The notes below the pieces were generated by a model. That model made no database searches, was not told the origin of the DNA, and worked only from the letters and a program-made list of their open reading frames with translations. DNA of 64,000 bases from Sphingobacteriia bacterium (GTDB lineage Bacteria; Bacteroidota; Bacteroidia; Bacteroidales; UBA7960), in contig JAABRR010000007.1 in assembly GCA_011390785.1 (NCBI GenBank), forward strand, positions 1-64,000, written 5' to 3'. Below are positions 10,360-29,391 of the stretch, one piece after another; the first letter of the stretch is position 1; every line of letters starts with the position of its first letter. The position numbers and the translations under genes were made by a program.

Positions 10360-12054
10360 AGATAGTCTCTGTCTTTCCTTTAGTGGTTCAGAAGAGGGTA
10401 CCAGAGGAGGAAATCTCTCAGTATCCGGAAACAGAAACTGTTGATCGGCAAGAAGCTGTTCTCTTAAACGGGGATAACTCAAATCGTGCAGCTCCGTATT
10501 GGTTTCCAGAGCCATGGATGCTGCTGTGGTGGCTGATTGCCCCAGAATCATAAAGACAGGTTCCATGCGGATAGAGCCGTAGGCAATGTGAGATGCTGAC
10601 ATGGCGCAGGTTACGAGCAAATTATCACATTCATTTCGTTTGGGCAATATGCTGGCGTATGGTATGGCATAAGCACCTCCGGCCCATACTTCAATGTTTC
10701 CTTCGTTTTGTACGCAACCCATCCTGGTTATGTATCGTTGCACATTGTGCGAATCCATGGTGTAGGAACCCATGCCAATTGATTGGTCGGCTATAGTTAT
10801 TCTGCGGCAATCGTTCTCGGTCATTACATACTCTCCAATCATTCTTCTTGCCTCGCGCACGTAAATCTGATCGGGCCAGTGACCGTTGTTGGTGAATTCA
10901 TCAGCAGGCAGACCCCATTTTTTTACTTCATCTCTAATGTTTTTGGGCACACGCGGATGGTTGGCCAGCGTCCACATCAGTCCTTTCTGGTAATGCTCCT
11001 GTTCGGCTATGATGCTTTGTCTAATGCTATAGTTTCCATTGGGGTACTCATAGTTGATCCCAATTTTGTTGGTGGAAACACCCCATCTGTTATTGGTGTC
11101 GGTTTTTCGGTTGGGCATCATATGTGGGAGCCAGGGAACGCGCGTTTCGCCAGCTTCGAAATTTCGGAAGAGCAATTCATACTCCAATTCATCATATCCC
11201 TGCGGTTTTTCAATAGGCACCTTGTTTTCATCAACATCGGTAAGGCTCATTCTGAAGCAATAGGCCTGAATTCGGTGATCGCCTTCAAAATCTTTGCCTG
11301 GATCATCTCCGTGCACGCCGGGTAAAATTCCGCTTCGGGGGTTACCAGGTTCAATGTAGGGATCTACAAATCCGGGGATAATGTGGTTGTGTGTCCGCAC
11401 TTTTTGTACACCATTAAGGGTTTCACCATATACCGAATTTGCTTCACGACCCACATGGTAAGATACCCCTGCCATGGCCATCAGATCGCCTTCGTATGTG
11501 GTATCAATAAAGATTTTGCCTTTGTACTCATTGCCATTTTCGGTAACAATAGAAGTGATTCTGTTTCCTCGTTTGTTAACGCCATTGCTTCCCAACACCA
11601 ACCTGTCATTGATGACCACCGGAATCCTGTTTTCTTCCAGCATTTGCTGGTAAACTGCCATGGCTGCGCTGGGTTCAAAAAACCATGACGTATCATTGGC
11701 ACCAACAATTTTGGGTTCTTCATATTTCCATTTCGATTCATCCATATAATATTCCCTGAGTCTTTGGTAAAAACCTCTCGACATGCCACCAATGGCATCG
11801 GCAATTCCAAGGTCGGTGGCCCCAAGGCCTCCGGTGGTTAGTCCGCCAATACGTTGGGAAGGTTCAACAATTATGCATGACCGCCCCATTTGGGTAGCCT
11901 TCACAGCAGCGATAATACCCGCTGAAGTAGCACCATATATCACTATGTCGTAAACAGTTTCTGCTGCCTGGCAACTTTTAAGATAAGCCGGTAACAGCAA
12001 TCCTCCGGAAAAGATGGCTGTGTTTTTAAGAAAATCTCTGCGGTTTTGGTTCAT
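10312..12054 (-). CDS. FAD-dependent oxidoreductase with Tat-type signal
   Basis: 580 residues. The N-terminus NRRDFLKNTAIFSGG is a twin-arginine signal, followed by a Cys (LKSC, residues 25-28) that could be lipidated. YDIVIYGATSAGIIAAVKA (about 35-53) is the FAD-binding turn, then VEPSQRIGGLTTGGLG, typical of the FAD_oxidored family (PF12831). IFIDTTYEGDLMAMAG and the C-terminal RMEPVFMILGQSA agree. The protein should be exported folded with its flavin. Relatives lie in many polysaccharide loci, but substrates are mostly unknown. It is followed on the same strand by the esterase; a deleted relative sits at 8211-8456. Confidence 0.85.
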   Translation of the reverse strand: MNQNRRDFLKNTAIFSGGLLLPAYLKSCQAAETVYDIVIYGATSAGIIAAVKATQMGRSCIIVEPSQRIGGLTTGGLGATDLGIADAIGGMSRGFYQRLREYYMDESKWKYEEPKIVGANDTSWFFEPSAAMAVYQQMLEENRIPVVINDRLVLGSNGVNKRGNRITSIVTENGNEYKGKIFIDTTYEGDLMAMAGVSYHVGREANSVYGETLNGVQKVRTHNHIIPGFVDPYIEPGNPRSGILPGVHGDDPGKDFEGDHRIQAYCFRMSLTDVDENKVPIEKPQGYDELEYELLFRNFEAGETRVPWLPHMMPNRKTDTNNRWGVSTNKIGINYEYPNGNYSIRQSIIAEQEHYQKGLMWTLANHPRVPKNIRDEVKKWGLPADEFTNNGHWPDQIYVREARRMIGEYVMTENDCRRITIADQSIGMGSYTMDSHNVQRYITRMGCVQNEGNIEVWAGGAYAIPYASILPKRNECDNLLVTCAMSASHIAYGSIRMEPVFMILGQSATTAASMALETNTELHDLSYPRLREQLLADQQFLFPDTERFPPLVPSSEPLKERQRLSNEPILENGCVVKYFD

Positions 12055-12785: not shown

Positions 12786-14162
12786 ATGAAGGAATTTTCG
12801 AACGGATCACTATACGCTGTCATTTACCTTTTTGTGGCAATATCTCTTGTTTTTACAGGATGCGATGATGCTATTGAGCCACCGCCAGATGATAACTACA
12901 ATAGTCACTGCCCACGACTTCGAAAGCAAATAAATACTCCTCTCACCGACGATCAACTTTTAGATCTTGTCCAAAAACAAACCCTTAAGTATTTCTGGGA
13001 TTTTGCCGAACCCAACTCAGGTATGGCGCGCGAAAGAAATACATCAGGCAATCTTGTGACTTCCGGTGGCAGCGGATTTGGCATCATGGCTATAATAGCA
13101 GGTGCAGAAAGAGGGTTCCTGGATCGCGATAAAGTTCTCGACAGGATGATCAAAATTGTTAATTTTCTGGAAACTGCTGATCGTTTTCACGGAGCATGGG
13201 CTCACTGGATGGATGGGCGCAATGGTAATGTTATCCCCTTCAGTTCGAATGATAATGGTGGAGACCTGGTAGAAACAGCATTCCTGCTACAGGGCTTGCT
13301 TACCGCCCGCGAATATTTTGATGGAGATACCCCCAAAGAAATTGCACTAAGGCAAGACATTGATACTCTTTACGGCGAAGTGGACTGGCAATGGTACACC
13401 CGTGGACAAAATGTATTGTACTGGCATTGGTCGCCCACAGTTGATTTTGCAATGAATATGCGCATAAGCGGTTGGCATGAAGCACTTATTGTATATGTGC
13501 TGGCGGCAGGTTCACCCACGTATCCCATTGCACCGGAGGTTTATCATCAAGGTTGGGCCAGGAACGGAAACATGAAAAACGGACGTTATTTTTATAATGT
13601 TCAGCTTCCGCTAGGCCCTGATTTTGGCGGCCCGTTGTTTTTCGCCCACTACTCTTTTCTCGGACTTGATCCACGTGGCCTGAACGATCAGTACGCCAAC
13701 TATTGGGACCAAAACCGCAATCATACTCTCATTAATTATAAGTATGCTATTGCCAATCCTAACGAATTCTGTCATTACTCCGATTCCATTTGGGGCCTCA
13801 CCGCCAGCGACGACCCCGAAGTGGGCTATCAGTCGCATGCACCAAATAATATTAGTGGTAGCGACAATGGCACTATTACACCTACCGCTGCCCTTTCATC
13901 TATGCCCTATACTCCCGAAGAAAGCATGAAAGCACTGAGAACTTTCTATTATTATATGAATAATAATCTGTGGGGTAGTTATGGGTTCAAAGATGCCGTA
14001 AACTTTGATCATAACTGGTATGCCGATAGCTACCTGGCCATTGATCAGGGGCCTATTGTGGTAATGATTGAAAACCATCGCTCAGGTTTGCTTTGGGATA
14101 CCTTTATGAAAAATGAGCACGTAAATAACGGACTTCAAACCTTAGGATTTTATTACGAGTGA
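12786..14162 (+). CDS. GH144-like endo-beta-1,2-glucanase, lipoprotein
   Basis: 458 residues. The signal ends in VFTGC, so the mature protein is a lipoprotein. The rest is the (alpha/alpha)6 barrel of the glycoamylase-like family (PF10091), used by GH144 enzymes that cut beta-1,2-glucan. Recognisable blocks: LKYFWDFAEPNSGMARERN near the N-terminus, ISGWHEALIVYVLAAGSPT, WGLTASD, DNGTITPTAALSSMPY and QGPIVVMIENHRSGLLWD near the end. A second, distinct copy lies at 17813. GH144 contains both endo-acting and sophorose-releasing exo-acting members; which this is cannot be told by eye. It is the first gene of the proposed operon. Confidence 0.82.
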   Translation: MKEFSNGSLYAVIYLFVAISLVFTGCDDAIEPPPDDNYNSHCPRLRKQINTPLTDDQLLDLVQKQTLKYFWDFAEPNSGMARERNTSGNLVTSGGSGFGIMAIIAGAERGFLDRDKVLDRMIKIVNFLETADRFHGAWAHWMDGRNGNVIPFSSNDNGGDLVETAFLLQGLLTAREYFDGDTPKEIALRQDIDTLYGEVDWQWYTRGQNVLYWHWSPTVDFAMNMRISGWHEALIVYVLAAGSPTYPIAPEVYHQGWARNGNMKNGRYFYNVQLPLGPDFGGPLFFAHYSFLGLDPRGLNDQYANYWDQNRNHTLINYKYAIANPNEFCHYSDSIWGLTASDDPEVGYQSHAPNNISGSDNGTITPTAALSSMPYTPEESMKALRTFYYYMNNNLWGSYGFKDAVNFDHNWYADSYLAIDQGPIVVMIENHRSGLLWDTFMKNEHVNNGLQTLGFYYE

Positions 14163-14217: not shown

Positions 14218-17200
14218 ATGATAAAAACAAACAAAATATACTTTCAATTCTTGTTTATTGGGTTACTGTTTACCTTGCCGTTTATTGTATCGGCACAGCT
14301 TTCTGTTAGTCCGGCCACATATCAGTTTCCTGCAAGACAGGTTGGTTCTGAATCAGAAGAAGTTGTATTTACCCTTGAGAACGAAGGGATTGCAGCAGAA
14401 GTAATCACTCCGGAGCAAATTCAAATTGTATCGCAAAACGGGAAAAGCACTCCTATTTCTGTAATGACATATAATATCTGGAACGACAACCAGAACTGGC
14501 CTGCCCGCCTGGCTCATATGCTTAGTGAAATCAGAATCCTTAACCCCGATCTTATAGGACTTCAGGAAGTGATTCAGCGGTCGTCTTTGCCCAATCAGGC
14601 GCAAACTCTTGCCGATTCACTGGGTTACTACTATTATTTTTCTTCGGTAGATCCTGTTACTTCGGCGCAAAGATTTGGTAATGCAATTCTTTCCCGATAT
14701 CCTCTGCTGGAAACCAACTGGAGACATCTGCAACCCGAGAACGATTATCGTATAGCAGTTCATGCCAAAATTGAAATTGCAGGAAACATTATTGATTACT
14801 ATAACACCCACTTGCACAATACCGCTGTTAATGCGCATATCAGAGAACAGCAAATCACCGATCTGTACGATTTTATTGATGATACATCAACATCAGACTA
14901 TATTTTTGTAACCGGCGATTACAACGCCAATCCCGATTGGGATGAGATGGAATTGATGTACGAAGATTTCTATGATGTTTATCCTTTTTTTCATGAAGAT
15001 CATCTGGAACCGGATCATAGCACCCTAAATTTTAACTGGGGGCATCAACAAAGAAGAATCGACTACATTTTTTTCAACAAAGCTGCTGAAACCATGCTCA
15101 TACCCCAATCGGCAGAGGTAGTCCTTGATCAACCTGATGAAAACGGAATTTATGGTTCAGACCACTTTGGTGTTTTAGCCACTTTCAACCTGCTTTCTGA
15201 TGCCGATGCCTTCCTTCTCAGAAACATCGAACAATCTCTTACTCTGCAACCCGGAGAATCTACCCAGGTGGATGTAATATTTGCCCCTTTTGTTGTGGGG
15301 CAGCATGATGTGAATCTTGAAATTCCCGGAATGACGGTACCCCTTAGCGGAGAAAGTTTTGATGCCACCATACACCAATACCCGTGGGAAGAAGATTTTT
15401 CAACAACACAACCGGGTGTATTTCCACTGGGGTGGGAAGCCAATACAGAAGTCTGGCAGGTATCTGATTCTGATAATGCTGAAGGTACTACCCCCGAACT
15501 TGGATTCGTAAATAATGCGCAGGAGGAAGGCATTTTTTGGATAAAATCTCCCTTCCTGAATACTGTCGGGCTCGATAGCATGGAGCTTTCTTTCCACCAT
15601 CAGTTAGCTGTGACTCCCGAACCGGTTAATTTTAACCTGCAACTGATGGTTTTCGGTGCCGGACAGGAATACCTGGTAATGGAGTGGTTAAATCCTGCTG
15701 CTTTTGCCGCAGAAGAGTTTACTGTTCAAATAAACAGCGCCCTGCATGGCATAGGTAGTGGGATTGTTCAGCTTGTTTGGATGGTTGATGGAATCGAAAA
15801 TCCAGGCGCCAGCTGGTTTATTGATGATGTAATGCTTACGGCTGAACCGGCCCTTTCAGTTTCTCCGGTTTCGTTTTCTTTTGAGCCTCAGCTGATCAAT
15901 ACGTCTTCTGATCAACAGATTTTTACACTTACCAATATTGGGGGTGGCACGCTGAACCTGATGCCCGGGGATATTACCCTGGTTGGAAACGATGCCGACC
16001 AGTTTGTTTTACAAAATATATCAAATCCGGTTGCTCTGGGCAATATGGAAACGGCAGAAATTTCTCTGGTATTTCAACCCGGTACAGTAGGTTTAAAAAA
16101 CATCTCATTAACTTTTCCCGGGCATGAAATTCCTGTTGACGGACTCGCTTATGACCCTACAATTACAGAAATGCCGTGGAGTGAAGATTTTAGTGGACTG
16201 GCCGGCGGGAGTATACCTTTGGGCTGGGCTACCAATGTTGTAAACTGGGGTGTTTTCAATGGCAATAATGCAGGTGGCGAAGCCCCTGAAATGGTTTTCT
16301 GGTGGCAGCCTGAAACAGCCGGAGAGTTCATTCTCACCACACCTAAAATAGAAACGCAAACCTTCGACACTCTCATATTGTCTTTCAAACATCGCATCAA
16401 TGATTTTGGCCCTCCCGGGCAATTCACCCTGAAAGTGCTGGCCATTACACCCGAAGCCACGCATATTCTGCAACAGTGGCAAAATCCTGGCAGTACCGAT
16501 CCTGCTACTTTTACAATCCTTTTAACTTCGGAGCAGGGTTTAGGAAGCAATGAATTTCAACTTGCATGGGTTTTCCAGGGGACTACCGACAATATTACGC
16601 AGTGGGATATTGATGACATATTATTGAAAGAACCTGGTAATGTTTCCGAAGCAGAGATTTTACCCAAATCTTTCGACTTTGGGCAGCAGGTTACCGGAAC
16701 ACTTTCCCAACCGGCAATATTTACTGTTCGAAACATTGCCGGTGGTACATTAAGTATTACTCCTTCCAACATTCAGATAGAAGGTGCTGATGCCAGTTCC
16801 TTCCTTTTGCAGTTACCCGCAGAGGGTATTGAACTTTCAACCTTTGAGACTGCTGAAATCTCCGTTTCTTTTATTCCGCAAACCCCTGGAGCTAAAAATG
16901 CATTACTAACCGTTCCCGGTCATCAAATTCCCCTTACCGGTTTGGGTGTAGACGTGGAATATTTCATTTACAGCGATTTCTCGGTTGTAGAAAGTGGAAT
17001 ACCCTATACCAACGTAGGTGGATTCAGAGAAGTACCCGGTTGGGCCACATCCAGTCTCAGTGCTACCGATGTTTCAGGCGAAGGAGACTTTGGCAATACC
17101 ATCTTACGTATCAATTATGATCTAACACAGACAAATGACTTTACATCTTACTGGATGTGGGCCTTCCCCTCAGCCAACATCAGTGGTCATGATAAAATGA

Positions 17201-17736
17201 TAATATTCATCAAAGCTGATGAACCTGCCAGCAATGTCAGGATTCAAATGTTCGACACAGATGGTATACAGGGATCAAACGGCGCATCTTATACCTATAT
17301 CGATGTAGACACAGAATGGCAGGGATTGGTTTTGCCTGTCAACGATTTTTCTACCATGGACTGGGCAGAGAATTTACCCGATATGAGCAAGATCCAGCGA
17401 ATAGATATCACCTTTGAGAATGGATCAACTACACCATTGCAAAATACCATTTATGTTGATATGGTGGGATTCGAGGAGCAGTCATCTTCTGCGCCAGACC
17501 TTACAAATAACGATTCTTTCCAAATGTATCCTAACCCAGCCGGGCAAAGTGTAACTCTTTTCACACCGGAACAGGCACTCATTTCATTTATTGACCTTCA
17601 TGGAAAAGTGCTGATCAATCAAATATCCGGTCAAAATCATACTACCGTAGATTTATCCGCCCTTGAAAGTGGTATTTACATAGTGAAAGTTCAAAATCAG
17701 AAAGGTACCTCAGTAAAAAAACTTTTGGTACTGTAA
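14218..17736 (+). CDS. T9SS-exported multidomain protein with EEP phosphodiesterase domain nested in an Ig-like domain
   Basis: 1172 residues with a signal peptide (1-26). Residues 27-71 are the first half of a choice-of-anchor-D (ASPM-like) domain; its second half resumes at about 327 (DADAFLL). Between them, about 79-326, lies an endonuclease/exonuclease/phosphatase domain with its metal and catalytic residues: MTYNIW (Asn86), LIGLQEV (Glu), GDYNANPD and the final SDH (315-316). Two more Ig-like domains and two beta-sandwich (choice-of-anchor J) domains follow, then a domain at about 914-1090 shared with the protein at 29477, and a type A sorting domain (MYPNPAG). It probably acts on the cell surface on a phosphodiester. 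Its place among beta-1,2-glucan enzymes suggests, but does not prove, removal of phosphoglycerol-type groups. Confidence 0.85.
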   Translation: MIKTNKIYFQFLFIGLLFTLPFIVSAQLSVSPATYQFPARQVGSESEEVVFTLENEGIAAEVITPEQIQIVSQNGKSTPISVMTYNIWNDNQNWPARLAHMLSEIRILNPDLIGLQEVIQRSSLPNQAQTLADSLGYYYYFSSVDPVTSAQRFGNAILSRYPLLETNWRHLQPENDYRIAVHAKIEIAGNIIDYYNTHLHNTAVNAHIREQQITDLYDFIDDTSTSDYIFVTGDYNANPDWDEMELMYEDFYDVYPFFHEDHLEPDHSTLNFNWGHQQRRIDYIFFNKAAETMLIPQSAEVVLDQPDENGIYGSDHFGVLATFNLLSDADAFLLRNIEQSLTLQPGESTQVDVIFAPFVVGQHDVNLEIPGMTVPLSGESFDATIHQYPWEEDFSTTQPGVFPLGWEANTEVWQVSDSDNAEGTTPELGFVNNAQEEGIFWIKSPFLNTVGLDSMELSFHHQLAVTPEPVNFNLQLMVFGAGQEYLVMEWLNPAAFAAEEFTVQINSALHGIGSGIVQLVWMVDGIENPGASWFIDDVMLTAEPALSVSPVSFSFEPQLINTSSDQQIFTLTNIGGGTLNLMPGDITLVGNDADQFVLQNISNPVALGNMETAEISLVFQPGTVGLKNISLTFPGHEIPVDGLAYDPTITEMPWSEDFSGLAGGSIPLGWATNVVNWGVFNGNNAGGEAPEMVFWWQPETAGEFILTTPKIETQTFDTLILSFKHRINDFGPPGQFTLKVLAITPEATHILQQWQNPGSTDPATFTILLTSEQGLGSNEFQLAWVFQGTTDNITQWDIDDILLKEPGNVSEAEILPKSFDFGQQVTGTLSQPAIFTVRNIAGGTLSITPSNIQIEGADASSFLLQLPAEGIELSTFETAEISVSFIPQTPGAKNALLTVPGHQIPLTGLGVDVEYFIYSDFSVVESGIPYTNVGGFREVPGWATSSLSATDVSGEGDFGNTILRINYDLTQTNDFTSYWMWAFPSANISGHDKMIIFIKADEPASNVRIQMFDTDGIQGSNGASYTYIDVDTEWQGLVLPVNDFSTMDWAENLPDMSKIQRIDITFENGSTTPLQNTIYVDMVGFEEQSSSAPDLTNNDSFQMYPNPAGQSVTLFTPEQALISFIDLHGKVLINQISGQNHTTVDLSALESGIYIVKVQNQKGTSVKKLLVL

Positions 17737-17812: not shown

Positions 17813-19216
17813 ATGATTATGAAAACCTTGATATCTTTTCCCCGGATCATAGTTATTTTTTCCATTGTTATGTTTTCATGCGGTAAGTCTCCGCAAACTA
17901 CAGAATTTATTTCCCGGGGAAACATAGACTATCCCCTTAGTGCTGATGATGAAGCACTGCTGGACTCCATTCAATACCATACTTTTTTGTTTTTCAAAGA
18001 CAAGGTAAATCCAGAAAAGGGTCTGTTCAAGGACCGCGCAGCAGATTATGCTCCCTCCAGTATTGCTTCAACCGGATTTGCCCTACCCACTATGGCAGCG
18101 GCAGTTGAAAGAAACTGGATGACCCGGGAAGAAGCAGCCCAGATAACTTTTAACGCACTGAATTTCCTGATAAACTCTGAACAGAGTGATGCTCCGGATG
18201 CTACCGGTTACAAAGGATTCTACTACCATTTCATTGATATGGAGACAGGCGAACGCACCTGGGAATGTGAATTATCATCTATCGATACCGGATTACTTAT
18301 GATGGGGATCATATTTTCAAGAAATTATTACAACCGTGATAATGAAACGGAAAGTCAGATCCGCGATATGGCTGCCCAATTATTGGGAAAAATGGACTGG
18401 AGCATCTTCGAAATGGGCCCGGAAACCAAACAGCCCAACACCATTTCCATGGGCTGGAAGCCAGAGGATGGTATGCTTAACTGGGGGTGGCACGGTTATA
18501 ACGAAGGACTTTTTCTTTATATTCTTGCTGCCGGAACAGGAATGGAAAACGTTGAAGAAAGTTTTGATGCCTGGCTGGCAACGTATGAATGGAAAACTCC
18601 ATATCCCGGGCTTTCTCACGTAATCTTTCCTCCCCTGTTCGGACATCAGTTTTCACATGCCTTTATCGATTTCAGAGGTATTGTAGACAAATACATGAAA
18701 GAAAAGGGTATTGATTATTTTGAAAATTCTCGTCGGGCAACACTAACACAACAGCAATATGCAATCCAGAATCCTTTTGAATGGAAAGGTTATGGTGAGT
18801 TTTGCTGGGGGGTTACTGCAAGCGACGGACCGGGGAGTGCCTATAATTATGATGGTTATGAATTTAAAGGCTATGCTGGCAGAGGTGCCGCCAGTCCCGA
18901 AGACAACTACAATGATGACGGAACCATTGCTCCTTACGGTGCACTTTCATCGCTCCCGTTTGCCCCCGAAATTGTATTTCCTACCATAAGATCAATGATA
19001 GAAATTAGTGGCGACAGCATATGGGGCCCCTACGGATTTTATGACTCTTTTAATTATACGGCAGGCTGGGTTAATGATGATTTTATCGGAGTGGCACAGG
19101 GCCCTATGCTGGTTATGATAGAGAATTTCCGTACCGGACTTATCTGGGATTATGTTATGCCAGACCCTATCATTCAAGAAGGATTAAACAAGCTTGGTTT
19201 TGAATACCTGGATTAA
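17813..19216 (+). CDS. Second GH144-like beta-1,2-glucanase, lipoprotein
   Basis: 467 residues; an ATG two codons in would also serve. The signal ends in MFSC, so it is a lipoprotein. It has the same glycoamylase-like barrel as the protein at 12786 (IASTGFALPTMAAAVERNW, WHGYNEGLFLYILAAGT, CWGVTASDG, DDGTIAPYGALSSLPFAPE, QGPMLVMIENFRTGLIWD) but is clearly diverged, so the copies likely differ in cutting mode (endo versus exo) or preferred length. It lies between the EEP protein and the transporter with short same-strand gaps, which supports one operon. Confidence 0.82.
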   Translation: MIMKTLISFPRIIVIFSIVMFSCGKSPQTTEFISRGNIDYPLSADDEALLDSIQYHTFLFFKDKVNPEKGLFKDRAADYAPSSIASTGFALPTMAAAVERNWMTREEAAQITFNALNFLINSEQSDAPDATGYKGFYYHFIDMETGERTWECELSSIDTGLLMMGIIFSRNYYNRDNETESQIRDMAAQLLGKMDWSIFEMGPETKQPNTISMGWKPEDGMLNWGWHGYNEGLFLYILAAGTGMENVEESFDAWLATYEWKTPYPGLSHVIFPPLFGHQFSHAFIDFRGIVDKYMKEKGIDYFENSRRATLTQQQYAIQNPFEWKGYGEFCWGVTASDGPGSAYNYDGYEFKGYAGRGAASPEDNYNDDGTIAPYGALSSLPFAPEIVFPTIRSMIEISGDSIWGPYGFYDSFNYTAGWVNDDFIGVAQGPMLVMIENFRTGLIWDYVMPDPIIQEGLNKLGFEYLD

Positions 19217-19300: not shown

Positions 19301-21355
19301 ATGAACGAGCAGAAACCCACGAAGCAAAATGCAGGCACGCTGGATGAAGACCGGATAAAGTTTTCGCAACTTGCGGCATTTGGTTCAGGTGGTATAATAC
19401 CCATCGCCCTCTTTAATGTGGCTGGTATACTTGTGGGCTTAATGGGCAACATCAGCCTGGGACTGAGTGCCTTCTGGCTGGGTGTGATCCTTATCATCCC
19501 TCGTTTATGGGATGCTGTTTCTGACCCTATTATCGGTCACTTTTCCGACAATGTACGCACTCGCTGGGGTCGTCGGCGCCCCTTCCTGCTGGTAGGCGGA
19601 ATTCTTGTGGCCGTATTTTTTGTACTTATGTGGTGGATACCCAAAGGTGATATGGTGCGTGTTTGGTTTCCTTCAGAATTGGGTTATCAGGCTTTTCAGC
19701 TGGGTTATATCCTTATCTCGCTTTTGCTCTTTTTTACTGCCTGTACAATCTTTGAGATCCCTCACGGTGCATTGGGAATGGAAATGACTTCCGACCATCA
19801 CGAACGCACCAGACTTTTCAGTGCCAAAAGTTTCGTAGGTAACCTCTTTGCCATGAGTACACCCTGGCTTTTTGCACTTGCCAACATGGAAGTATTTAAA
19901 GGACCCGGGGGCAATGAAGCCGATGGAATGCGTTACGTTTCCTTATTGGTTGCAGCTATCCTGATCCCTTTATCGTTCTGGTGGTTTTTCTCCTTGCGCG
20001 AGCCAGGTTTCAAAAGGGTTGTTAAGCAGGAAAAAACTCCTTTCTGGAAGGATATGAAACATGCTGCAAGCAATAAAAACTTCATCAAACTTACGCTAAC
20101 CATATTCACTTTGGCAATGGGGTTCAATTTTGTGAACCTGCTGGGCTCGTATATACCCATCTTTTATATTTTTGGTGGTGATAAGGTTGCAGGAGCCTAC
20201 CTGCTGGGGATCAACGGAACAGTATGGGCAGTTACAGGCCTGCTGGCTGTCTTTCCCTTAAACTGGATCGGACCCAAAATCGGGAAACGTAAAACGCTTA
20301 TCCTTGCCATCGGGCTTATGGCGCTGGCACAATTATCGAAAATTGTTTGTTATAATCCCAACTATCCCTACCTGATCGTTATCCCTACCATGCTGCTCTC
20401 TGCAGGTATGCTTTTCTTCTTTACCCTGGGAGCATCGATGGTGGGAGATATTTGTGATGAAGATGATCTTAACACAGGTCAACGCACTGAGGGGAGTTTT
20501 TATTCCATATTCTGGTGGTTCATAAAAATGGGGACAGCTCTTGCAAGTTTCGTGGCAGGTGCTCTGATCGTTTTTACCATGTTCGATCAAACCCAGGTAA
20601 CACGTGTTGACGCCATTGAAGGAAGTGTAAGGGAAATGCGCACGGAAGTTCAAAGGCTAGAACAGGAAGACTTTTATACAGATTCAGCAAATGCTGATAT
20701 TTCCACACTCGAAAACCAGGCATCCCAGGCTCTCAATGAAGCCAGCGAACAACTTACCTATCTTGAAAAGGAAGCGGTAAGAAATCCGGGTCGTGATCAT
20801 GTAGTGGAAACCCGCGACCAATTCTTTTCAGCAGCCATTGAAGAGATCCGTAATACAACAAATGAACTTGAAGCAGTGAAGCAAAAACTTCAGGAACAGG
20901 ATATTCAAAATTCGAATAATCTTGTGAAAGAAATTGTTGCATTAGCACTGCAAATCAAACAGAACAAAGCTCAAGTGGATGCTTTTCAGCTCGAAGCCCA
21001 CTTGAAAACCCGTACTAAAGAAGCGGAAACAAGCGAGGAGCATTACACCGAGTTGTTAGGAAATATTGGTAAAATTGGAAATGATCTGTCATCCATTAAT
21101 ACATCCCGCGATCTTGAGCTGCTGGAAGAAGAACTTATTGAAATCGAAGATCGTATAGTACCACTCAAAAGACAATCTCCCTATACCCTTTTTATGATGC
21201 GGTTAGTGGAAATCGGATTGCCCGTTTTACTAAGCATTTTTTCCTTCTTTTTTGTCACAAGATATTCTCTCACCGAAGAAAGATTGCAGGAAATTAAACA
21301 GCTTTTGAAGGCAAGAAATAAAAAACGCGAAGAACAATTTCAAAATAATGAGTAG
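19301..21355 (+). CDS. GPH-family sugar:cation symporter with large coiled-coil insertion
   Basis: 684 residues, about 220 more than usual for glycoside-pentoside-hexuronide (GPH, MFS) transporters. The membrane part is typical: WDAVSDPIIGHFSDNVRTRWGRRRPF early, DICDEDDLNTGQRTEGSFYS near 390-410. After the eleventh predicted helix (ALASFVAGALIVFTMF) comes a highly charged, Glu/Gln-rich helical stretch at about 433-625, then the last helix (about 630-652) and a charged tail. By standard topology the insert faces the periplasm. The protein should carry imported beta-1,2-gluco-oligosaccharides across the inner membrane. Its last 8 bases overlap the next gene's start (ATGAGTAG), so translation is coupled. 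Confidence 0.85.
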   Translation: MNEQKPTKQNAGTLDEDRIKFSQLAAFGSGGIIPIALFNVAGILVGLMGNISLGLSAFWLGVILIIPRLWDAVSDPIIGHFSDNVRTRWGRRRPFLLVGGILVAVFFVLMWWIPKGDMVRVWFPSELGYQAFQLGYILISLLLFFTACTIFEIPHGALGMEMTSDHHERTRLFSAKSFVGNLFAMSTPWLFALANMEVFKGPGGNEADGMRYVSLLVAAILIPLSFWWFFSLREPGFKRVVKQEKTPFWKDMKHAASNKNFIKLTLTIFTLAMGFNFVNLLGSYIPIFYIFGGDKVAGAYLLGINGTVWAVTGLLAVFPLNWIGPKIGKRKTLILAIGLMALAQLSKIVCYNPNYPYLIVIPTMLLSAGMLFFFTLGASMVGDICDEDDLNTGQRTEGSFYSIFWWFIKMGTALASFVAGALIVFTMFDQTQVTRVDAIEGSVREMRTEVQRLEQEDFYTDSANADISTLENQASQALNEASEQLTYLEKEAVRNPGRDHVVETRDQFFSAAIEEIRNTTNELEAVKQKLQEQDIQNSNNLVKEIVALALQIKQNKAQVDAFQLEAHLKTRTKEAETSEEHYTELLGNIGKIGNDLSSINTSRDLELLEEELIEIEDRIVPLKRQSPYTLFMMRLVEIGLPVLLSIFSFFFVTRYSLTEERLQEIKQLLKARNKKREEQFQNNE

Positions 21356-23792
21356 TTCCATGACAATGAATAATGAGACATTCACAATCCGTGATAATTT
21401 GTTTTACCTTAATGGGAAAGAAGTTTTTCTAAATTCAGGTGAAATACATTATTTCAGGATTAAGCGTGAATACTGGGACACTCACCTGGCAGCAGCCCGG
21501 GAGGCCGGACTTATGGCCGTTAGTAGTTATGTGCCCTGGGACTGGCATGAACCCAAGGAAGGGGTCTTCGATTTTGATGGCTCTACCATTGCCGAACGTG
21601 ATCTCAAAGGATGGTTGCAAAAATGCAGGGAACATGGTTTAAAGGCCATAGTAAAACCCGGGCCATACATCCTTGCAGAATATCGGGGGGCAGGTTTACC
21701 TGAATGGTTTCTTGATAAATATGAAGATGATGTAAGGATGAGCAACAGAAAAGGCGACAAGGTTTCAAGCGAAGGAGTAAATCTGTTCCATCCCATTTAT
21801 CTCGAAAAAGTTACGAAATGGTATGATAATATCATGCCTCTGATAAGCAAAAGTGAAGTTGCGAGCGGAGGCCCCATAATCATGATGCAGATTTGCAATG
21901 AGATTGGTCTGTTTTCATGGCTGGCCCATCAGGCTGATTATGGCGACAACGTAAGAGAACGATTTATTGAATGGCTAAGTGAAAAATATTCTGATATTGA
22001 AGAACTAAATGGTATTTGGAAAACTCAATACATACAATTCAGTGAGATTGAATTACCTCCTGATGTGATTACACCTTATGCATCCAAAAACGATAGGGCA
22101 AGAGATTTTGACTGGCACTACTTCTGGAGGAAATATTATGCTGATTACTTGAAAATGCTTGTAAAAATGGCACGCGACAGAGGTATAAGTGTACCATTTT
22201 ATCATAACCTGCCAGGCTGGATTTTTGGCCATGGTTATGAGTTCCCTGTAAATATAACGATGTACGACGAGCTTTACGGTGAAAAAAGCGATATCATCTT
22301 TGGTGTAGATCACATACCCGAATTTATGTCGCACCGAAATATGCATGACGATCGTATCATCAATGATATAGCTGCTGCCATGCAGGGGAATAAGCCTTTG
22401 TTTGCCGCAGAGTTTCAGAGTGGTTCGCGTGAGTATCATGTGGTAACCAACCCACGTGAAATGGAACTATTTTACAAAGCGAGTATTGCCAATGGGCTTA
22501 AAGGATGGAACTACTATATGTTCTCGCAGGGCCGCAACCCCGTTCGCAAAGGATACTCTGGCGATACTTTCTACTGGTTTAATCCGCTTACAGCCGAAGG
22601 AGAACGCACATCTGCCTTCCCTCTTGTACAAAGGATGAGCAAAATCATTAATACCTGCGAATCCCTTTTTGTAAAATCAAAACGTAAAGCTGACGTTTGT
22701 GTCCTTTTCTATCCGCCTTATTACACATCCGAACTGGAAAGACCTGAAAACGGAGCAAGCGAATTAACGTTTGTACCCGCAGCAATCAGAAGACCTGCGT
22801 ATTTCGACGGTTTGCTGAAAGTGTTACAGGTGCTGAACATTGATTACGACATGGCCGATCTCACCAAAATCTCGCATACCGATCTGCAACAATATGAGCA
22901 GGTATGGGCATTTTGTACCGATGAGATGGATGCGCGTGAACAGCAAATCCTGATAGATTACACTTCAGCCGGAGGCAAAACAATGATCTTCCCCAATTTA
23001 CCCGACCGCGAAATATCTCAGCAACCCTGCACCATGATCCGGGAAGCAGTGAAGATAAATCCAGCCGGAAAAGAATTCATCGATTCTCCCCTGATTGTTG
23101 TTCTGGGTTTGAAAGATATAAAATGTGCCAATCCGCAAATTACCTATGCTGAGGAATCTTTGGCAGATGATCAGATCATTGCCAGAACCCTTAGGGGAAA
23201 TGTCTGTGGTTTTACCAAACAACTGGGATCAGGAGAGATCGTCCATCTGGGCACCTGGCTGGGATTCGACACTGAAGGACACAAACCTGTGTACATGGCA
23301 CTGCTCAACAGAATGGGGGGTAACCTCAGAGTGGCATCTGCCAGCACTGATAATATTACTGTTCGCCAAAGGTTTTCTGAGAATGGAACCGCTTTGCTTT
23401 TTGCCGGAAATTATTATAACGAAGAACAAGAAGTTTCCATTAAATATACCCATCCTGCAACAGGAGAAACACTGTCATTACCCTATTCCGGGGAATCAAT
23501 CAACTTCCCACCGCTTTATGCTGTTCTTTCGCCGGTTTGCATGAAGGTTACCAATGTACTTACAATCCTGCATTGCACTTCCGACCTGTTGTCGGTAGAT
23601 AAGAACGAAAATTATCTGAAAATTACGCTTTATGGCGACCGCGATCTGATGGGTGAGCTGGTTCTGGAAGGAAAAATAACATCTGCTGAACTGGATGGAA
23701 TACCCGTAGAGCCTGAGCTCAAAGAAAACAGGATTATTCTTTCTTACGATCACAATCATAAAAAAGAAATTTTACTTAGTATAAAACTCTGA
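21348..23792 (+). CDS. GH35-family protein, likely 1,2-beta-oligoglucan glucosyltransferase
   Basis: 814 residues, no signal peptide, so cytoplasmic. The TIM barrel is GH35: SGEIHYFRI, VSSYVPWDWHEP, KPGPYILAEYRGAGLPEW, acid/base Glu185 in MQICNEIG and nucleophile Glu355 in LFAAEFQSG. GH35 is best known for beta-galactosidases, but a characterised member from Ignavibacterium acts on beta-1,2-linked gluco-oligosaccharides as a transferase. With a GH94 two bases downstream and GH144 enzymes upstream, that activity is more likely than beta-galactosidase here. It starts inside the transporter's stop region (8-base overlap). Confidence 0.75.
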   Translation: MSSSMTMNNETFTIRDNLFYLNGKEVFLNSGEIHYFRIKREYWDTHLAAAREAGLMAVSSYVPWDWHEPKEGVFDFDGSTIAERDLKGWLQKCREHGLKAIVKPGPYILAEYRGAGLPEWFLDKYEDDVRMSNRKGDKVSSEGVNLFHPIYLEKVTKWYDNIMPLISKSEVASGGPIIMMQICNEIGLFSWLAHQADYGDNVRERFIEWLSEKYSDIEELNGIWKTQYIQFSEIELPPDVITPYASKNDRARDFDWHYFWRKYYADYLKMLVKMARDRGISVPFYHNLPGWIFGHGYEFPVNITMYDELYGEKSDIIFGVDHIPEFMSHRNMHDDRIINDIAAAMQGNKPLFAAEFQSGSREYHVVTNPREMELFYKASIANGLKGWNYYMFSQGRNPVRKGYSGDTFYWFNPLTAEGERTSAFPLVQRMSKIINTCESLFVKSKRKADVCVLFYPPYYTSELERPENGASELTFVPAAIRRPAYFDGLLKVLQVLNIDYDMADLTKISHTDLQQYEQVWAFCTDEMDAREQQILIDYTSAGGKTMIFPNLPDREISQQPCTMIREAVKINPAGKEFIDSPLIVVLGLKDIKCANPQITYAEESLADDQIIARTLRGNVCGFTKQLGSGEIVHLGTWLGFDTEGHKPVYMALLNRMGGNLRVASASTDNITVRQRFSENGTALLFAGNYYNEEQEVSIKYTHPATGETLSLPYSGESINFPPLYAVLSPVCMKVTNVLTILHCTSDLLSVDKNENYLKITLYGDRDLMGELVLEGKITSAELDGIPVEPELKENRIILSYDHNHKKEILLSIKL

Positions 23793-23794
23793 AA

Positions 23795-26700
23795 ATGAAT
23801 ATTCAAAACCATACCGGACTCAACATTGATTTCCTCGATAACGGCGCAGTAAAATGCATAAAAGCCGGATCAATCAGGATTAGTATGAGAGAGGCATCTC
23901 CTTTCTCAGAGCCCGGGGTAAATATTTTTCTGAGAAAACATACTGACAATATTGAATATATTCCTTTAACCGGCCCTGACAGCGCGGGTGTCTTCCGTTT
24001 AAGCGATAAGGAATATATGACAAAGGGAAACCGGGAAGGTGTGGAATATCTTTGCGCGATTCAGTTTTCAGAGAAAAGCCAAAGCTGGCAATGGAACATC
24101 CGGATATCAAACAAATCGGATAAGGAAGCTGAATTTGATGTGATATGCGTGCAGGATGTCGGGCTAAAAGCAGCCGACTCAGGAACTGTAAATGAATATT
24201 ATGTAAGCCAGTATTTAGAAAGATTGATCCTTGAAGATGATAAGCTGGGTCCTGTGATCTTTTGCCGGCAAAATATGAAAGAAAAATCAGGACATCCGTG
24301 GTTGATGATGGCCTGCAAAAAAGGTGCATTATCGGGATTAACAGACGGTATGCAGTTTTATGGAAAATCATACAGAGTTACCGGAATTCCCGAATCATTG
24401 CTCTCTAAGAAACTAAGAGGCGAATATGCCGGAGAGTCTTCGTTAATTGCACTTCAAGGGAAGCCTTTTGCTTTGAAAAGTGGTGAAAGTTTTTCTGATG
24501 CTTTTGTTTTTTCTTTCCTGGCCAACCACCCCGAAGCCACTTCAGCGGCAGACTTGAAACGTCTTCCCGGGATACTTCAGGAGTTTACGGACGAGCTCCC
24601 TGAATTTGAAGACAATGGATGGCAGCAGCCAGTTACCAACCTATTTAAGACAGCGCTATTATTTCCATCGGAAGAACTTAACAGTGAGCAACTGAATAGC
24701 TTTTTTGGCGCTTCGCGTCGTCATGAAGAAACAGCGAATGGTAAACTATTATCCTTTTTCTGCAATGATCATGACCATGTGGTGCTTAAAGCCAAAGAAC
24801 TTCTAACCGACCGTCCGCACGGGCATATCATACAGGCAAATTCAGGTCTTAAACCGAATGAAGCCATCATGTCGACCAACCCTTATGCTTTCGGGGTTTT
24901 CAACTCACATATTACCCAGGGTAATACAAATTTCAACATATTCCTCTCAGTTTGCTCCGGGCAGTTTAATCTTGTTAAGGAAACCGGACAGCGAATTTTT
25001 GTCAGCATAGGAAATGAAACCTGGTTGCTGGGTGTTCCTTCTGCATTTGAAATGGGTCTTAACCATTGCCGGTGGATTTACAAGTTTGGTGAACAAATAT
25101 TACAGGTACGCACCTGGACCGACCCCCATTCGGCAAATATTCATACGGATGTAAAAGTACTTTCTGGAGGCGAAATAGATCTTACCCTTACTCATCAGTT
25201 CGATCCTTTGAATTCATGGAAAATAATTCCGAAGAAAACCGGAGAAATAATTGCCCGCCCGGCCATGGAAAGCATGATCATCTCAAAGTTCCCTGAAGCA
25301 CAATTCAGAATTCTGTTGCATGACAGTAATTCCGGGATTGAAATTCAGGGTGCAGAAACCTTGTGCAATGAAACCAACCGGAAAACTGACCATTCACTTC
25401 TTGTACTCAAGGTGAAAAGCACTATGAATTTTGCCATGAGTTTTGTGGGTGAAGTTACTTCCCCTGCCAAAACCATCAGGATTGAAGATACAGACCAGCA
25501 GTTCCGGCATGATTGCAAGGAAGCAACACGGGCATGGAAAAACCTGAGCCAGTATTTATCTCTGAAAGGGAATCACAAGGATATATCTGCCATCAATGAA
25601 ATCATTCCCTGGTATGGAATGAATGCATTAATCCATTACCTTACACCTTATGGCCTGGAGCAATTTGGAGGTGCTGCATGGGGAACACGTGATGTGTCGC
25701 AGGGTCCCATCGATCTGCTTTTATATCTTGGTAAATACAAGGAAGCTCGGGAAGTACTCTGCACCATTTTCTCCAACCAAAATCCTGATGGAGGATGGCC
25801 TCAGTGGTGGATGTTCGACAGCTATTCTGAAATCAGGGCGCACGAAGCCCATGGCGACATCATTTACTGGTGCATCATTGCCCTTGCTTATTATATTAAC
25901 ATGAGTGGTGATGTTAAAATTCTTGATGAAGTTCTGCCATGGTACAGCGAAAATTCCAAAGAAACAGAAAAGTCAGGCCTTGCTGAACATGTTGAAAGAC
26001 TTATTAATATAATTGTTAGTTCATTCATTCCCGGTACTTCGCTGGTACCCTTTGGTGGTGGCGACTGGAATGACTCTCTCCAACCCGTAAGCGAAGACCT
26101 GGCAAGCCGGATGATCTCATCCTGGACCGTTGAAATGAATTACCAGGCCTTCAGGCAATATACCAGGGTGTATGAAGCAGTCGGCAACAAGAACAAAGCC
26201 CTGGAATTGAATCAAATTTGTGAAAAGATAAAATCAGATTTTAACAAATATCTGGTTAAAGATGATGTTGTTGCCGGCTATGGATTGGCAGAAAAAGATG
26301 GCAATATCAGTGTTCTGCTCCATCCCACCGATACAACAACCGGAATTAAGTATAGTGTATTACCCATGAACCGTGGTATCATCAGTGGTCTTTTCAGTCG
26401 CGCACAGGCAGAAAAACATCAGTACCTTGTAGAAACCCATCTTAAAGGACCCGACGGAGCAAGACTCATGGATTGTCCTTTGCCCTATAAAGGGGGTGTT
26501 CAGGAGATTTTCCAGAGGGCCCAAAGCAGCACATTCTTTGGCCGTGAGATCGGGCTGATGTACATTCATGAACATATTCGTTATGCCGAATCACTTGCCA
26601 TCATGGGCAAACCGGAAGCATTTGTTAAGGCACTACGGCAGGCTATTCCTGTTGGTTATCGTGATATTGTGCCATGCGGCGATATTCGCCAGGCCAATTG

Positions 26701-27139
26701 CTATTACAGCAGCTCCGATGTGGTTTTTAAAAGCAGATACGATGCTGATCGGAGATATGAAGATGTAATTAGCGGAAAGATGACAGTGAGAGGTGGCTGG
26801 AGGGTTTATTCAAGCGGACCCGGTATATTCATAGGATTGATAGTTTCACGTTTACTGGGAATCAGAACATTTGCAGAAAATGTTGTGTTTGACCCGGTTA
26901 TGCCACCACCCTTCAATGGACTTACCGCAATCACAGAGCTTTTTGGTAATCCGGTTGAAGTGACATTCTTAACAGGCAAACAAGGTTTTGGTGTAAGATC
27001 TGTTTTATTAAATGGTAACCCGTTAAATATTAAAATGGAAGAAAATCCTTATCGTGAAGGTGGCGCAATTATATCTAAAGAAAAGATTATCAGTTTAATT
27101 AAGAATGTAAACAATAAACTGGAAATAGAAATAAAATAA
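23795..27139 (+). CDS. GH94 phosphorylase, likely 1,2-beta-oligoglucan phosphorylase
   Basis: 1114 residues with no signal peptide. The signature FGGGDWNDS (Asp757-Trp-Asn-Asp760) holds the general acid of GH94 enzymes; WGTRDVSQGPIDLLLY, NPDGGWPQWWMFD and the C-terminal VRGGWRVYSSGPGIFI region are also typical. Cellobiose phosphorylases are near 800 residues, whereas 1,2-beta-oligoglucan phosphorylases are about 1,100 because of a long N-terminal beta part, which fits here. Expected reaction: sophoro-oligosaccharide plus phosphate gives glucose 1-phosphate and a shortened chain, saving ATP. Two bases separate it from the GH35 gene, so the two probably act together. Confidence 0.82.
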   Translation: MNIQNHTGLNIDFLDNGAVKCIKAGSIRISMREASPFSEPGVNIFLRKHTDNIEYIPLTGPDSAGVFRLSDKEYMTKGNREGVEYLCAIQFSEKSQSWQWNIRISNKSDKEAEFDVICVQDVGLKAADSGTVNEYYVSQYLERLILEDDKLGPVIFCRQNMKEKSGHPWLMMACKKGALSGLTDGMQFYGKSYRVTGIPESLLSKKLRGEYAGESSLIALQGKPFALKSGESFSDAFVFSFLANHPEATSAADLKRLPGILQEFTDELPEFEDNGWQQPVTNLFKTALLFPSEELNSEQLNSFFGASRRHEETANGKLLSFFCNDHDHVVLKAKELLTDRPHGHIIQANSGLKPNEAIMSTNPYAFGVFNSHITQGNTNFNIFLSVCSGQFNLVKETGQRIFVSIGNETWLLGVPSAFEMGLNHCRWIYKFGEQILQVRTWTDPHSANIHTDVKVLSGGEIDLTLTHQFDPLNSWKIIPKKTGEIIARPAMESMIISKFPEAQFRILLHDSNSGIEIQGAETLCNETNRKTDHSLLVLKVKSTMNFAMSFVGEVTSPAKTIRIEDTDQQFRHDCKEATRAWKNLSQYLSLKGNHKDISAINEIIPWYGMNALIHYLTPYGLEQFGGAAWGTRDVSQGPIDLLLYLGKYKEAREVLCTIFSNQNPDGGWPQWWMFDSYSEIRAHEAHGDIIYWCIIALAYYINMSGDVKILDEVLPWYSENSKETEKSGLAEHVERLINIIVSSFIPGTSLVPFGGGDWNDSLQPVSEDLASRMISSWTVEMNYQAFRQYTRVYEAVGNKNKALELNQICEKIKSDFNKYLVKDDVVAGYGLAEKDGNISVLLHPTDTTTGIKYSVLPMNRGIISGLFSRAQAEKHQYLVETHLKGPDGARLMDCPLPYKGGVQEIFQRAQSSTFFGREIGLMYIHEHIRYAESLAIMGKPEAFVKALRQAIPVGYRDIVPCGDIRQANCYYSSSDVVFKSRYDADRRYEDVISGKMTVRGGWRVYSSGPGIFIGLIVSRLLGIRTFAENVVFDPVMPPPFNGLTAITELFGNPVEVTFLTGKQGFGVRSVLLNGNPLNIKMEENPYREGGAIISKEKIISLIKNVNNKLEIEIK

Positions 27140-27156
27140 CTGAATATTTAATAAAC

Positions 27157-29391
27157 ATGTATAGAATATTGCAAAATTTTATTTACCTTTTACCACTGAT
27201 ACTTTTCCTGGCATGCGCATCAGAAAAGCAGGATGTCGAGACAAGGAATATGGATCGTTTTATCGATAACCTGATGAAGGAAATGACCCTGGAGGAAAAG
27301 ATTGGTCAATTAACCTTATATTCAAGTTTTATGGATGAAACAGGTCCTTTTATGAATGAAGATTATCTTGATTATATCAGGGTGGGGAGAGTAGGGGCTG
27401 TTTTCAATGCTTACACCACTGAATACACACGTGAAATCCAGCGTATTGCTGTTGAAGAAACCCGCCTGGGAATTCCTCTTCTTTTTGGATATGATGTGAT
27501 ACACGGTCATCGCACCATTTTTCCCATGCCCATAGGCGAAACTGCTACCTGGGATTTGGAAATGATTGAGCAATCCGCCCGCTATGCAGCACAGGAAGCT
27601 ACCGCCGAAGGTTTGAACTGGACCTTTTCTCCCATGATAGATGTTACACGTGATCCCCGGTGGGGGCGTATTGCCGAAAGTTCGGGCGAAGATCCATTGT
27701 TGGCATCGCTCGTGGGGAGGGCAAAAATCCGTGGTTATCAGGGTGATGATCTAAGCCAACCGAATACCATGCTGGCTACCGCCAAACATTTTGCCGCTTA
27801 TGGCTTCCCGCAGGCAGGCCGCGATTATCATACCGTTGATATTTCTGAGCTTACATTGCGTAATGTTGTGTTGCCTGCTTTTAAGGCAGCCGCCGAAGAA
27901 GGCGTAGCTACCTATATGACCTCTTTTAATGATCTTTTTGGAGTACCCGCTTCAGGCAGCAATTTTCTGCTCAACGAAGTGCTAAGAAACGAATGGGGCT
28001 TCGATGGATTCGTGGTAACCGATTACACATCTATCAACGAGATGGTGCCCCACGGTTTTGCCCGCGACGACAAACATGCAGGCGAACTTGCTATCAATGC
28101 AGGTGTTGATATGGATATGCAGGGTTCTGTTTACCATGACTATCTCGAAGAGCTTGTTGATGATGGCAAAGTAAACGAAGAAACTATCGAAAAGGCAGTG
28201 AGAAGAATTCTTACATTGAAATATAAACTGGGTTTGTTTGAAGATCCGTATCGTTACAATGACAAAGATCGGGAAGAAACGATGATCATGACCCTTGAGA
28301 TTATGGATTTTGCCCGAGATTTTGCCCGCAAATCTGTTGTACTGCTTAAAAATGAAGAAAATACGCTTCCCCTTTCCGATGATGTCCGATCACTTGCCCT
28401 TATTGGCCCCATGGCTGACAACCAACGAGATATGATCGGCTCATGGTCAGCTGCCGGCGATTATGCCAAAAGCGTAACCTTACGCAAAGGGCTGGAAAAC
28501 AGGTTAGGCACCAATGCACGCATTAATTACGCGCAGGGAACTACCGTTAATGGAACGGATCGGTCCGGTTTCTCCCAGGCAATTGCTGCGGCACGCAATT
28601 CAGATGCAGTGATAATGGCTTTAGGCGAAGAGTATTGGCAAAGTGGAGAAGCAGCCAGCCGTTCCGATATCAGTTTGCCTGGTGTGCAGGAAGAGTTATT
28701 CGATGAGATCATTAAGCTTGGAAAACCCGTTGTTGTAATCATTATGAGCGGAAGACCCCTTACCATTGGCAATGTTGATGAAAAGGCTGATGCGATATTG
28801 TATGCCTGGTACCTTGGCACCACTACCGGCGATGCGCTGGCAGATGTTATGTTTGGCGATTATAATCCTGCTGCAAAACTGCCGGTAACTTTCCCCAGAA
28901 ATGTGGGTCAAATCCCAATTTTCTATTATGCCAAAAATACCGGCAGGCCCGAGTCAGAAATCAAATTTACATCCAAGTACCTTGATGTGCCCAATACACC
29001 CTTATATCCTTTTGGATACGGGCTGTCTTATACCACGTTCGGGTATTCAGATATTACACTTTCATCCGATCAGTTACCCATGGATGGAGAGTTGAAAGCA
29101 ACCCTTAGTGTTACCAACACCGGAGATCGTTTTGGAGAGGAAGTTGTACAGTTTTATACACGTCAATTGGTAGGAAGTGTAACCCGTCCTCTTAAAGAGT
29201 TGAAGAATTTTCAAAAAATTGGCCTGGAACCCGGTGAAACCAAAGAAGTTGTTTTTACAATTTCTGCTGCTGATCTGGCTTTTTATAACGCACAAAATGA
29301 ATTGAAAGCAGAACCCGGAGCTTTTCACCTGTTTATTGGTGCCAGTTCTGCTGACGTAAAAAAGGCAGCATTTACGCTGCTTTCTAAATAA
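27157..29391 (+). CDS. GH3 beta-glucosidase (BglX type), lipoprotein
   Basis: 744 residues; a signal ending in FLACAS marks a lipoprotein, so it acts in the periplasm or at the surface. It has the full GH3 set: TIM-barrel domain with KHFAAYG and the nucleophile Asp289 in GFVVTDYTSINEM, the alpha/beta sandwich with ALGEEYWQSGE, and a C-terminal fibronectin-III-like domain (about 650-744, GEEVVQFYTRQ). It likely trims glucose from sophorose and short beta-1,2-oligosaccharides, as a Bacteroides GH3 homologue does. It starts 17 bases after the GH94 gene. Confidence 0.88.
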   Translation: MYRILQNFIYLLPLILFLACASEKQDVETRNMDRFIDNLMKEMTLEEKIGQLTLYSSFMDETGPFMNEDYLDYIRVGRVGAVFNAYTTEYTREIQRIAVEETRLGIPLLFGYDVIHGHRTIFPMPIGETATWDLEMIEQSARYAAQEATAEGLNWTFSPMIDVTRDPRWGRIAESSGEDPLLASLVGRAKIRGYQGDDLSQPNTMLATAKHFAAYGFPQAGRDYHTVDISELTLRNVVLPAFKAAAEEGVATYMTSFNDLFGVPASGSNFLLNEVLRNEWGFDGFVVTDYTSINEMVPHGFARDDKHAGELAINAGVDMDMQGSVYHDYLEELVDDGKVNEETIEKAVRRILTLKYKLGLFEDPYRYNDKDREETMIMTLEIMDFARDFARKSVVLLKNEENTLPLSDDVRSLALIGPMADNQRDMIGSWSAAGDYAKSVTLRKGLENRLGTNARINYAQGTTVNGTDRSGFSQAIAAARNSDAVIMALGEEYWQSGEAASRSDISLPGVQEELFDEIIKLGKPVVVIIMSGRPLTIGNVDEKADAILYAWYLGTTTGDALADVMFGDYNPAAKLPVTFPRNVGQIPIFYYAKNTGRPESEIKFTSKYLDVPNTPLYPFGYGLSYTTFGYSDITLSSDQLPMDGELKATLSVTNTGDRFGEEVVQFYTRQLVGSVTRPLKELKNFQKIGLEPGETKEVVFTISAADLAFYNAQNELKAEPGAFHLFIGASSADVKKAAFTLLSK

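Follow-up and report, generated by a model that had tools for sequence, protein, structure and literature searches.

We analysed a window of 64,000 nucleotides from the genome of a Sphingobacteriia bacterium (Bacteroidota; assembly GCA_011390785.1, contig JAABRR010000007.1, positions 1 to 64,000), in which the open reading frame at 14218-17736 on the forward strand encodes a protein of 1172 amino acids. In this protein, an endonuclease/exonuclease/phosphatase (EEP) domain is inserted into the first of three immunoglobulin (Ig)-like domains, and the same layout was found in all 14 proteins of the family. The gene lies in what is, from its predicted enzymes, clearly a β-1,2-glucan utilisation locus. 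We propose, at even chances, that the nested protein is exported by the type IX secretion system (T9SS), is held at the cell surface and acts there as an accessory phosphoesterase on phosphate-bearing groups of β-1,2-glucans.

Nesting of the EEP domain in an Ig-like domain

Pfam and NCBIfam recognised an EEP domain, the choice-of-anchor-D domain (NF012200) and a T9SS type A tail in the protein, all on the forward strand. By eye from the translation, the N terminus resembles a signal peptide (residues 1-26, 14218..14295), with a hydrophobic stretch running to VSAQ. It is followed by the N-terminal half of the first Ig domain (residues 27-71, 14296..14430), the EEP domain (residues 77-326, 14446..15195), which is placed by PF03372, its fold match and invariant motif residues, and the C-terminal half of the Ig domain (residues 327-381, 15196..15360). 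The second Ig copy (residues 545-645, 15850..16152; NF012200 best stretch 539-633; ITLVGNDADQFVL) and the third (residues 812-912, 16651..16953; IQIEGADASSFLL) are uninterrupted. The protein ends with a β-sandwich module resembling carbohydrate-binding module (CBM) family 11 (residues 912-1095, 16951..17502), placed by an AlphaFold model and a fold search, and with the T9SS type A sorting domain (residues 1103-1171, 17524..17730), which matches TIGR04183 (E 8e-14; 51.4 bits against a cut-off of 23) and PF18962 (E 2.5e-13). This tail agrees with an earlier sequence-only reading of the same DNA, which had described a surface-exported protein; location at the surface is what such a tail would predict.

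The same reading had claimed that the first Ig domain breaks off after IQIV (residues 68-71) and resumes at DADAFLL, which begins at residue 328, whereas the other two copies run through. We approached this without presupposing nesting, using a profile derived from the uninterrupted second and third copies alone (545-645 and 812-912), which was run on 14 full or partial proteins (that of the window and 13 others); its E values refer to a search of these 14 sequences. The first copy was matched in two pieces, profile positions 2-50 at residues 28-76 (E 5.8e-6) and positions 47-101 at residues 327-381 (E 5.8e-9). In 14/14 proteins, the EEP domain was flanked by two such complementary pieces, which share between 3 and 15 profile positions. 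The weakest C-terminal halves, taken alone, were those of the records L042 (E 9e-4) and L040 (E 0.017), and the second piece ends at profile position 90 in L042 and L043. Both the split and the intactness of the other copies were confirmed, and, as judged by the profile, the two pieces together account for a whole, interrupted choice-of-anchor-D or ASH-like Ig domain.

An AlphaFold model of residues 27-392, built from the 14 sequences, had a predicted local distance difference test score (pLDDT) of 86.3 and a predicted template modelling score (pTM) of 0.84. Five strands precede the EEP domain (model strands 2-5, 9-15, 23-29, 35-37 and 43-46) and five follow it (306-309 to 346-355), and the ten-residue blocks with strands of both halves have a mean pLDDT of 85-98. 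In a fold comparison of this model, the matches listed were taken up by EEP structures. That the two halves pack as one sandwich is inferred from the strands, their pLDDT and the match to the profile. Structure prediction is consistent with nesting in that the model is confident and has strands on both sides of the EEP domain, which would close into a single sandwich.

Catalytic residues and relatives of the EEP domain

PF03372 was matched over its full length (positions 1-225 of 225) at residues 83-316, with an E value of 5.2e-23. N86, E117, H198, D234, N236, D282, D315 and H316 are identical in 14/14 sequences, including that of the window, and we take these residues to be the named catalytic motifs of EEP enzymes (Asn, Glu, Asp/Asn and the terminal Asp-His). 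Because the eight motif residues are invariant, the EEP domain is very probably active, and the earlier description of about 250 residues with catalytic Asn, Glu, Asp and His in place holds.

In comparisons with solved structures (VIA-align, where rows within 1 Z of each other are ties), the EEP domain scored Z 20.6-25.1 across the best 50 rows listed. Among these rows, we found the Bacteroides EEPs 3mpr (Z 25.1) and 3g6s (Z 25.0), tyrosyl-DNA phosphodiesterase 2 (TDP2, Z 24.7), the mannosyl-6-phosphatase BT3783 of Bacteroides thetaiotaomicron (4c1r, Z 24.3), human neutral sphingomyelinase (8j2f, Z 23.9) and Bacillus sphingomyelinase (Z about 21). With the whole protein as the phmmer query, TDP2 chains were the only solved matches at E ≤ 0.01 (best E 2.6e-7). 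TDP2, a eukaryotic DNA repair enzyme, is the best solved sequence relative of the nested EEP domain and has neither the nesting nor a T9SS tail. BT3783 shares the EEP fold and is, by its entry title, a Bacteroidota EEP acting on a glycan phosphate; its gene lies in a mannan locus, and it is the nearest functional precedent. However, the solved chain comprises one domain of 267 residues, is 20% identical and lacks nesting, a CBM and a T9SS tail.

The precedent of BT3783, which acts on mannose 6-phosphate, raises the alternative of a phosphomonoesterase that takes plain phosphate off a glucan or oligosaccharide, instead of a phosphodiesterase. The scores of 4c1r and of the two Bacteroides EEPs speak for it, but the nested protein matched TDP2 chains and not BT3783 in sequence at E ≤ 0.01, and the BT3783-like EEP is the stand-alone one of L042 (E 2e-45). 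Moreover, the phosphoglycerol and phosphoethanolamine of osmoregulated periplasmic glucans (OPGs) are diester-linked, and we regard a monoesterase as distinctly unlikely. The sphingomyelinase rows would fit an enzyme like phospholipase C or sphingomyelinase that attacks the membranes of prey or neighbours and so exposes their periplasmic glucans. These rows tie with or fall below those of the nucleases and the sugar phosphatase, though, and no recognised domain of the protein is, to our knowledge, known for membrane binding, which makes such an activity very improbable. The EEP fold is common to nucleases, sphingomyelinases and sugar phosphatases, and since 4c1r is, by its title, a mannosyl-6-phosphatase and so a monoesterase, the label 'phosphodiesterase' of the sequence-only reading may be too narrow. 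The calculated isoelectric point of the nested protein (4.45) was dropped as an argument against a nucleic-acid substrate, as the locus neighbours are equally acidic (4.3-4.9).

CBM11-like C-terminal module

No Pfam match was found across residues 912-1095 at E ≤ 0.001. The AlphaFold model of this region (pLDDT 86.9) is a β-sandwich, and its nearest fold is CBM11 of Clostridium thermocellum Lic26A-Cel5E (CtCBM11; 6r3m, 1v0a), with Z 16.3, a root-mean-square deviation of 3.0 and 161 aligned residues for 6r3m in VIA-align and an E value of 1.2e-7 in Foldseek. The two share the fold but only 17% identity, and CtCBM11 was solved with a mixed-linkage β-1,3-1,4 tetrasaccharide, not with β-1,2-glucan. 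The remaining rows were mostly CBMs (CBM30, Z 14.2) and parts of polysaccharide-degrading enzymes, and the module also aligned to the N-terminal part of a β-1,2-glucanase from Parabacteroides distasonis (5z06, Z 11.5).

We detected the module in 9/14 nested proteins and in further T9SS-type proteins of these loci, one of which is encoded at 29477-31279 in the window (27% identity, E 7.5e-17). Three of the five nested proteins in which it was not detected are truncated where their contigs stop (L034, L036 and L041). The module, with its CBM11-like modelled fold, is new here, and as a part of the protein it is suggestive evidence that the target is a glucan.

Linkage of the nested gene to GH144

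The gene 55 bp upstream of the nested gene (12786..14162, forward strand) encodes a homologue of GH144-type endo-β-1,2-glucanases, here called GH144a. It matches PF10091, which we take to be GH144, with an E value of 8.5e-79; its best solved chain is 4gl3, 'putative glucoamylase' (E 3e-154), and the next is 5gzh, 'Endo-beta-1,2-glucanase' (E 2e-141). We searched 59 relatives, a set that includes the window's own genome and several incomplete genomes. A long match to the nested protein was found in ten, and in 10/10 (the window and nine others) the same GH144a gene directly adjoins the nested gene, although it is cut by the contig end in L023. PF10091 was present in these 10/10 genomes and in 17/49 genomes without the nested protein (Fisher p 1.3e-4, uncorrected for kinship).

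A scan of wider contigs with an alignment query yielded 13 loci, nine already among the relatives and four new ones, from Balneolales (L035 and L037), Phaeodactylibacter (L036) and Saprospiraceae (L038); a single-protein query gave none. GH144-type genes co-occur with the nested gene in 14/14 genomes. Among the 17 genomes with PF10091 but without the nested protein, the GH144 regions of nine were examined (L044-L052), and the nested gene was absent from all nine, L044 ending just past GH144a. The insertion that had been noticed in the window therefore recurs beside GH144a in sister loci, and other loci of this type do without it.

Several loci carry a LamG-like gene with a lipoprotein-like start (L022:5097-5933, L024:7873-8709, L045:6190-7026, L046:5756-6530 and L049:5993-6829). 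In L022 and L024 it comes after the nested gene, and in loci that lack the nested gene it stands directly after GH144a. Its product may be a surface glycan-binding protein.

In five sister loci, a stand-alone EEP gene is found 5′ of a regulator gene, upstream of GH144a (L022:18756-19619, L026:16310-17257, L027:15078-15941, L028:5656-7059 and L029:7827-8699). The regulator in L022 is of the Reg_prop/LuxR type. The stand-alone EEP of L029 (the same as L042:4517-5389) is close to BVU_0621 (3g6s, E 6e-59) and BT3783, and that of L028 stands in one frame after a membrane-type segment. In the window's genome, the regulator and the stand-alone EEP are paired in the same way, but on a different contig, C87 (L076:12678-16409), and no regulator match was found on the window's contig at E ≤ 0.001. 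We therefore rejected the stand-alone EEP as a second phosphatase of the locus, since this arrangement links it with the regulator, and a link with the glucan enzymes need not follow. In another GH144 locus, L050:1-1011 encodes a calcineurin-like metallophosphoesterase, possibly an alternative phosphoesterase; a single gene separates it from the regulator downstream.

Gene content of the window

The genes downstream of the nested gene, all on the forward strand, complete the predicted β-1,2-glucan locus. A second GH144-type homologue follows after 76 bp (17813..19216; PF10091 E 1.5e-70), with XCC2207 (8xul, E 3e-104) as its best chain and 5gzh at E 2e-44. Next come a GPH/MFS-type sugar transporter (19301..21355; PF13347 E 6e-64), a GH35 homologue of the β-1,2-glucosyltransferase IaSGT (21348..23792; 7vkw 'beta-1,2-glucosyltransferase', E 1.7e-150) and a SOGP homologue (23795..27139; SOGP_2nd E 4.9e-54, SOGP_N E 1.3e-50), which also matches 5h3z (E 1.7e-175), an entry titled only 'Uncharacterized protein'. 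A GH3 β-glucosidase homologue (27157..29391; PF00933 E 4.2e-68) is closest to 3u48 (E 9e-225) and to 5xxl 'Periplasmic beta-glucosidase' (E 8e-218). It is followed by the T9SS-tailed protein at 29477..31279, which has no recognised enzyme domain and carries its CBM11-like module at about 30527-31036, and by a SusC/SusD pair (31515-34637, PF07715/PF13715; 34707-36260, PF07980/PF14322). The assignment to β-1,2-glucan utilisation made from the sequence alone is well supported by this set. A similar set (two GH144, a GH94/SOGP homologue, GH35 IaSGT and transporters) is found in the β-1,2-glucan cluster of Ignavibacterium album (PMC8861115), and the main text of that paper does not contain the words phosphatase or exonuclease.

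Upstream of the locus, on the opposite strand (8621-12054), a double esterase gene (BD-FAE and GDSL) stands next to a gene whose translation reads like an FAD-dependent oxidoreductase; the esterase may possibly be a succinyl-group deacylase. Farther away, 55242-60422 on the reverse strand encodes a protein of 1726 amino acids whose sole Pfam match is a HYDIN-like Ig domain. Promoter and terminator scans of the window were near chance, and a Bacteroides-type promoter pattern had 0 matches within the window.

Distribution of the family

The nested family is rare. In a draw of 395 genomes of the phylum, with six candidates scored per genome where candidates were many, matches at E ≤ 1e-20 were confined to the window's genome and to three stand-alone EEPs, all distant, and among 295 genomes of the class, the window's genome was the sole match at E ≤ 1e-40. 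The three stand-alone EEPs (L062-L064, E 6e-22 to 1e-28) are secreted proteins and the nearest outside the nested family in the draw of 395 genomes; as read from their translations, the EEP domain lies near the N terminus and is followed by a sorting-tail-like segment, with no flanking Ig halves.

Isolate names of the CSSed or B1Sed series, which PMC6146748 and PMC6704655 use for Siberian soda-lake sediments, are borne by 9/13 named records. The DLM2 and GEM2 records may come from Canadian soda lakes. A tree built from the EEP domain rejected a single clade for the window's genus (approximately unbiased (AU) test, p 1e-6), but not for the window's family (p 0.07); both groups were picked after the tree had been seen. 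This sequence tree suggests exchange between related bacteria. Transfer across phyla is not argued, since a single clade for the window's family was not rejected.

Proposed function

Export by the T9SS would place the nested protein at the cell surface, with the EEP domain, a predicted metal-dependent phosphoesterase, inserted in the first of its three Ig spacers. The CBM11-like end would tether the enzyme to β-glucan chains, and the EEP domain would cleave phosphoglycerol, phosphoethanolamine or similar substituents off environmental β-1,2-glucans. The bare chain would then be open to the GH144-type enzymes and the SusCD importer. Phosphoglycerol, phosphoethanolamine and succinate are named as substituents of OPGs in PMC10514313 and PMC11842490. 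The glycan target of the sequence-only reading gains from the adjacency of GH144a, the co-occurrence of GH144-type genes and the module in most of the proteins; removal of phosphoglycerol in particular, and cleavage of a diester as against a monoester, are what we infer.

Several observations weigh against this proposal. The fold comparison ties nucleases (TDP2 and Nocturnin), sphingomyelinase and sugar phosphatase, so that the fold does not choose the substrate, and the only solved sequence matches at E ≤ 0.01 are the chains of TDP2. The fold rows of the C-terminal module also include 7zkq (Z 15.3), an assembly factor of complex I, and the fold alone is therefore no proof of sugar binding. 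The Balneolales proteins of L035 and L037 are without the module; their C-terminal segment is 55-57% identical to another part of the protein encoded at 29477-31279. No GH144 gene was seen beside the nested gene in 4/14 records, three of them on contigs of less than 9 kb, and these four genomes each hold two PF10091 matches elsewhere, some of them partial. The nested gene is also dispensable: in L045 and L046, a LamG gene comes next after GH144a, at a distance of 119 and 73 bases, respectively, and such sister loci mark the nested gene as an accessory that loci of this type may or may not carry. Finally, we know of no phosphate groups on the β-1,2-glucans of soda lakes.

The main rival is a surface nuclease or general scavenger of organic phosphate, riding by chance in a glucan locus and drawing phosphate or nucleotides from extracellular DNA, RNA and other esters. 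The match to TDP2 fits such an enzyme, and NCBIfam has a T9SS DNase family, although the match here lies mainly in the tail region (residues 1063-1168), with a score of 24 where the cut-off is 260. According to PMC8115612, the orphan EEP Fjoh_0074 of Flavobacterium johnsoniae was among the phosphodiesterases in a study of phosphate depletion, with modest induction, and phosphate-responsive SusCD loci of Flavobacterium carry phosphatases and phosphodiesterases. However, the same paper calls these clusters clearly distinct from SusCD clusters with carbohydrate enzymes. The other enzymes of the locus in the window are of the β-1,2-glucan type, GH144-type genes accompany the nested gene in all 14 genomes and the protein itself has a glucan-binding-like module. 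Taken together, we regard a scavenger as rather unlikely, and retain the action on phosphate-bearing β-1,2-glucans as our best explanation.

EEP enzymes, EEP sugar phosphatases and β-1,2-glucan loci are each already known separately. In titles and the beginnings of abstracts, we found no EEP enzyme for β-1,2-glucan, a weak negative, as the term 'endonuclease/exonuclease/phosphatase' was unsearchable. Equally weak are two further negatives: no account was found of the nested layout, of the CBM-like fusion or of a fixed place beside GH144, and the enzymes described in the available parts of papers on OPGs and β-1,2-glucan act on the glucan backbone, with none found that removes phosphate groups.

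The layout shows an enzyme domain housed as an insert within a spacer Ig domain. Tentatively, and with less confidence than in the proposed function itself, the family might be the first example of a class of enzymes that strip β-1,2-glucans of phosphodiester-linked substituents at the cell surface, have an EEP-in-Ig build with a fused glucan-binding module and are traded among soda-lake Bacteroidota and Balneolota. The nested gene family is in any case a concrete, conserved and testable candidate for removing the phosphate decorations of OPGs.

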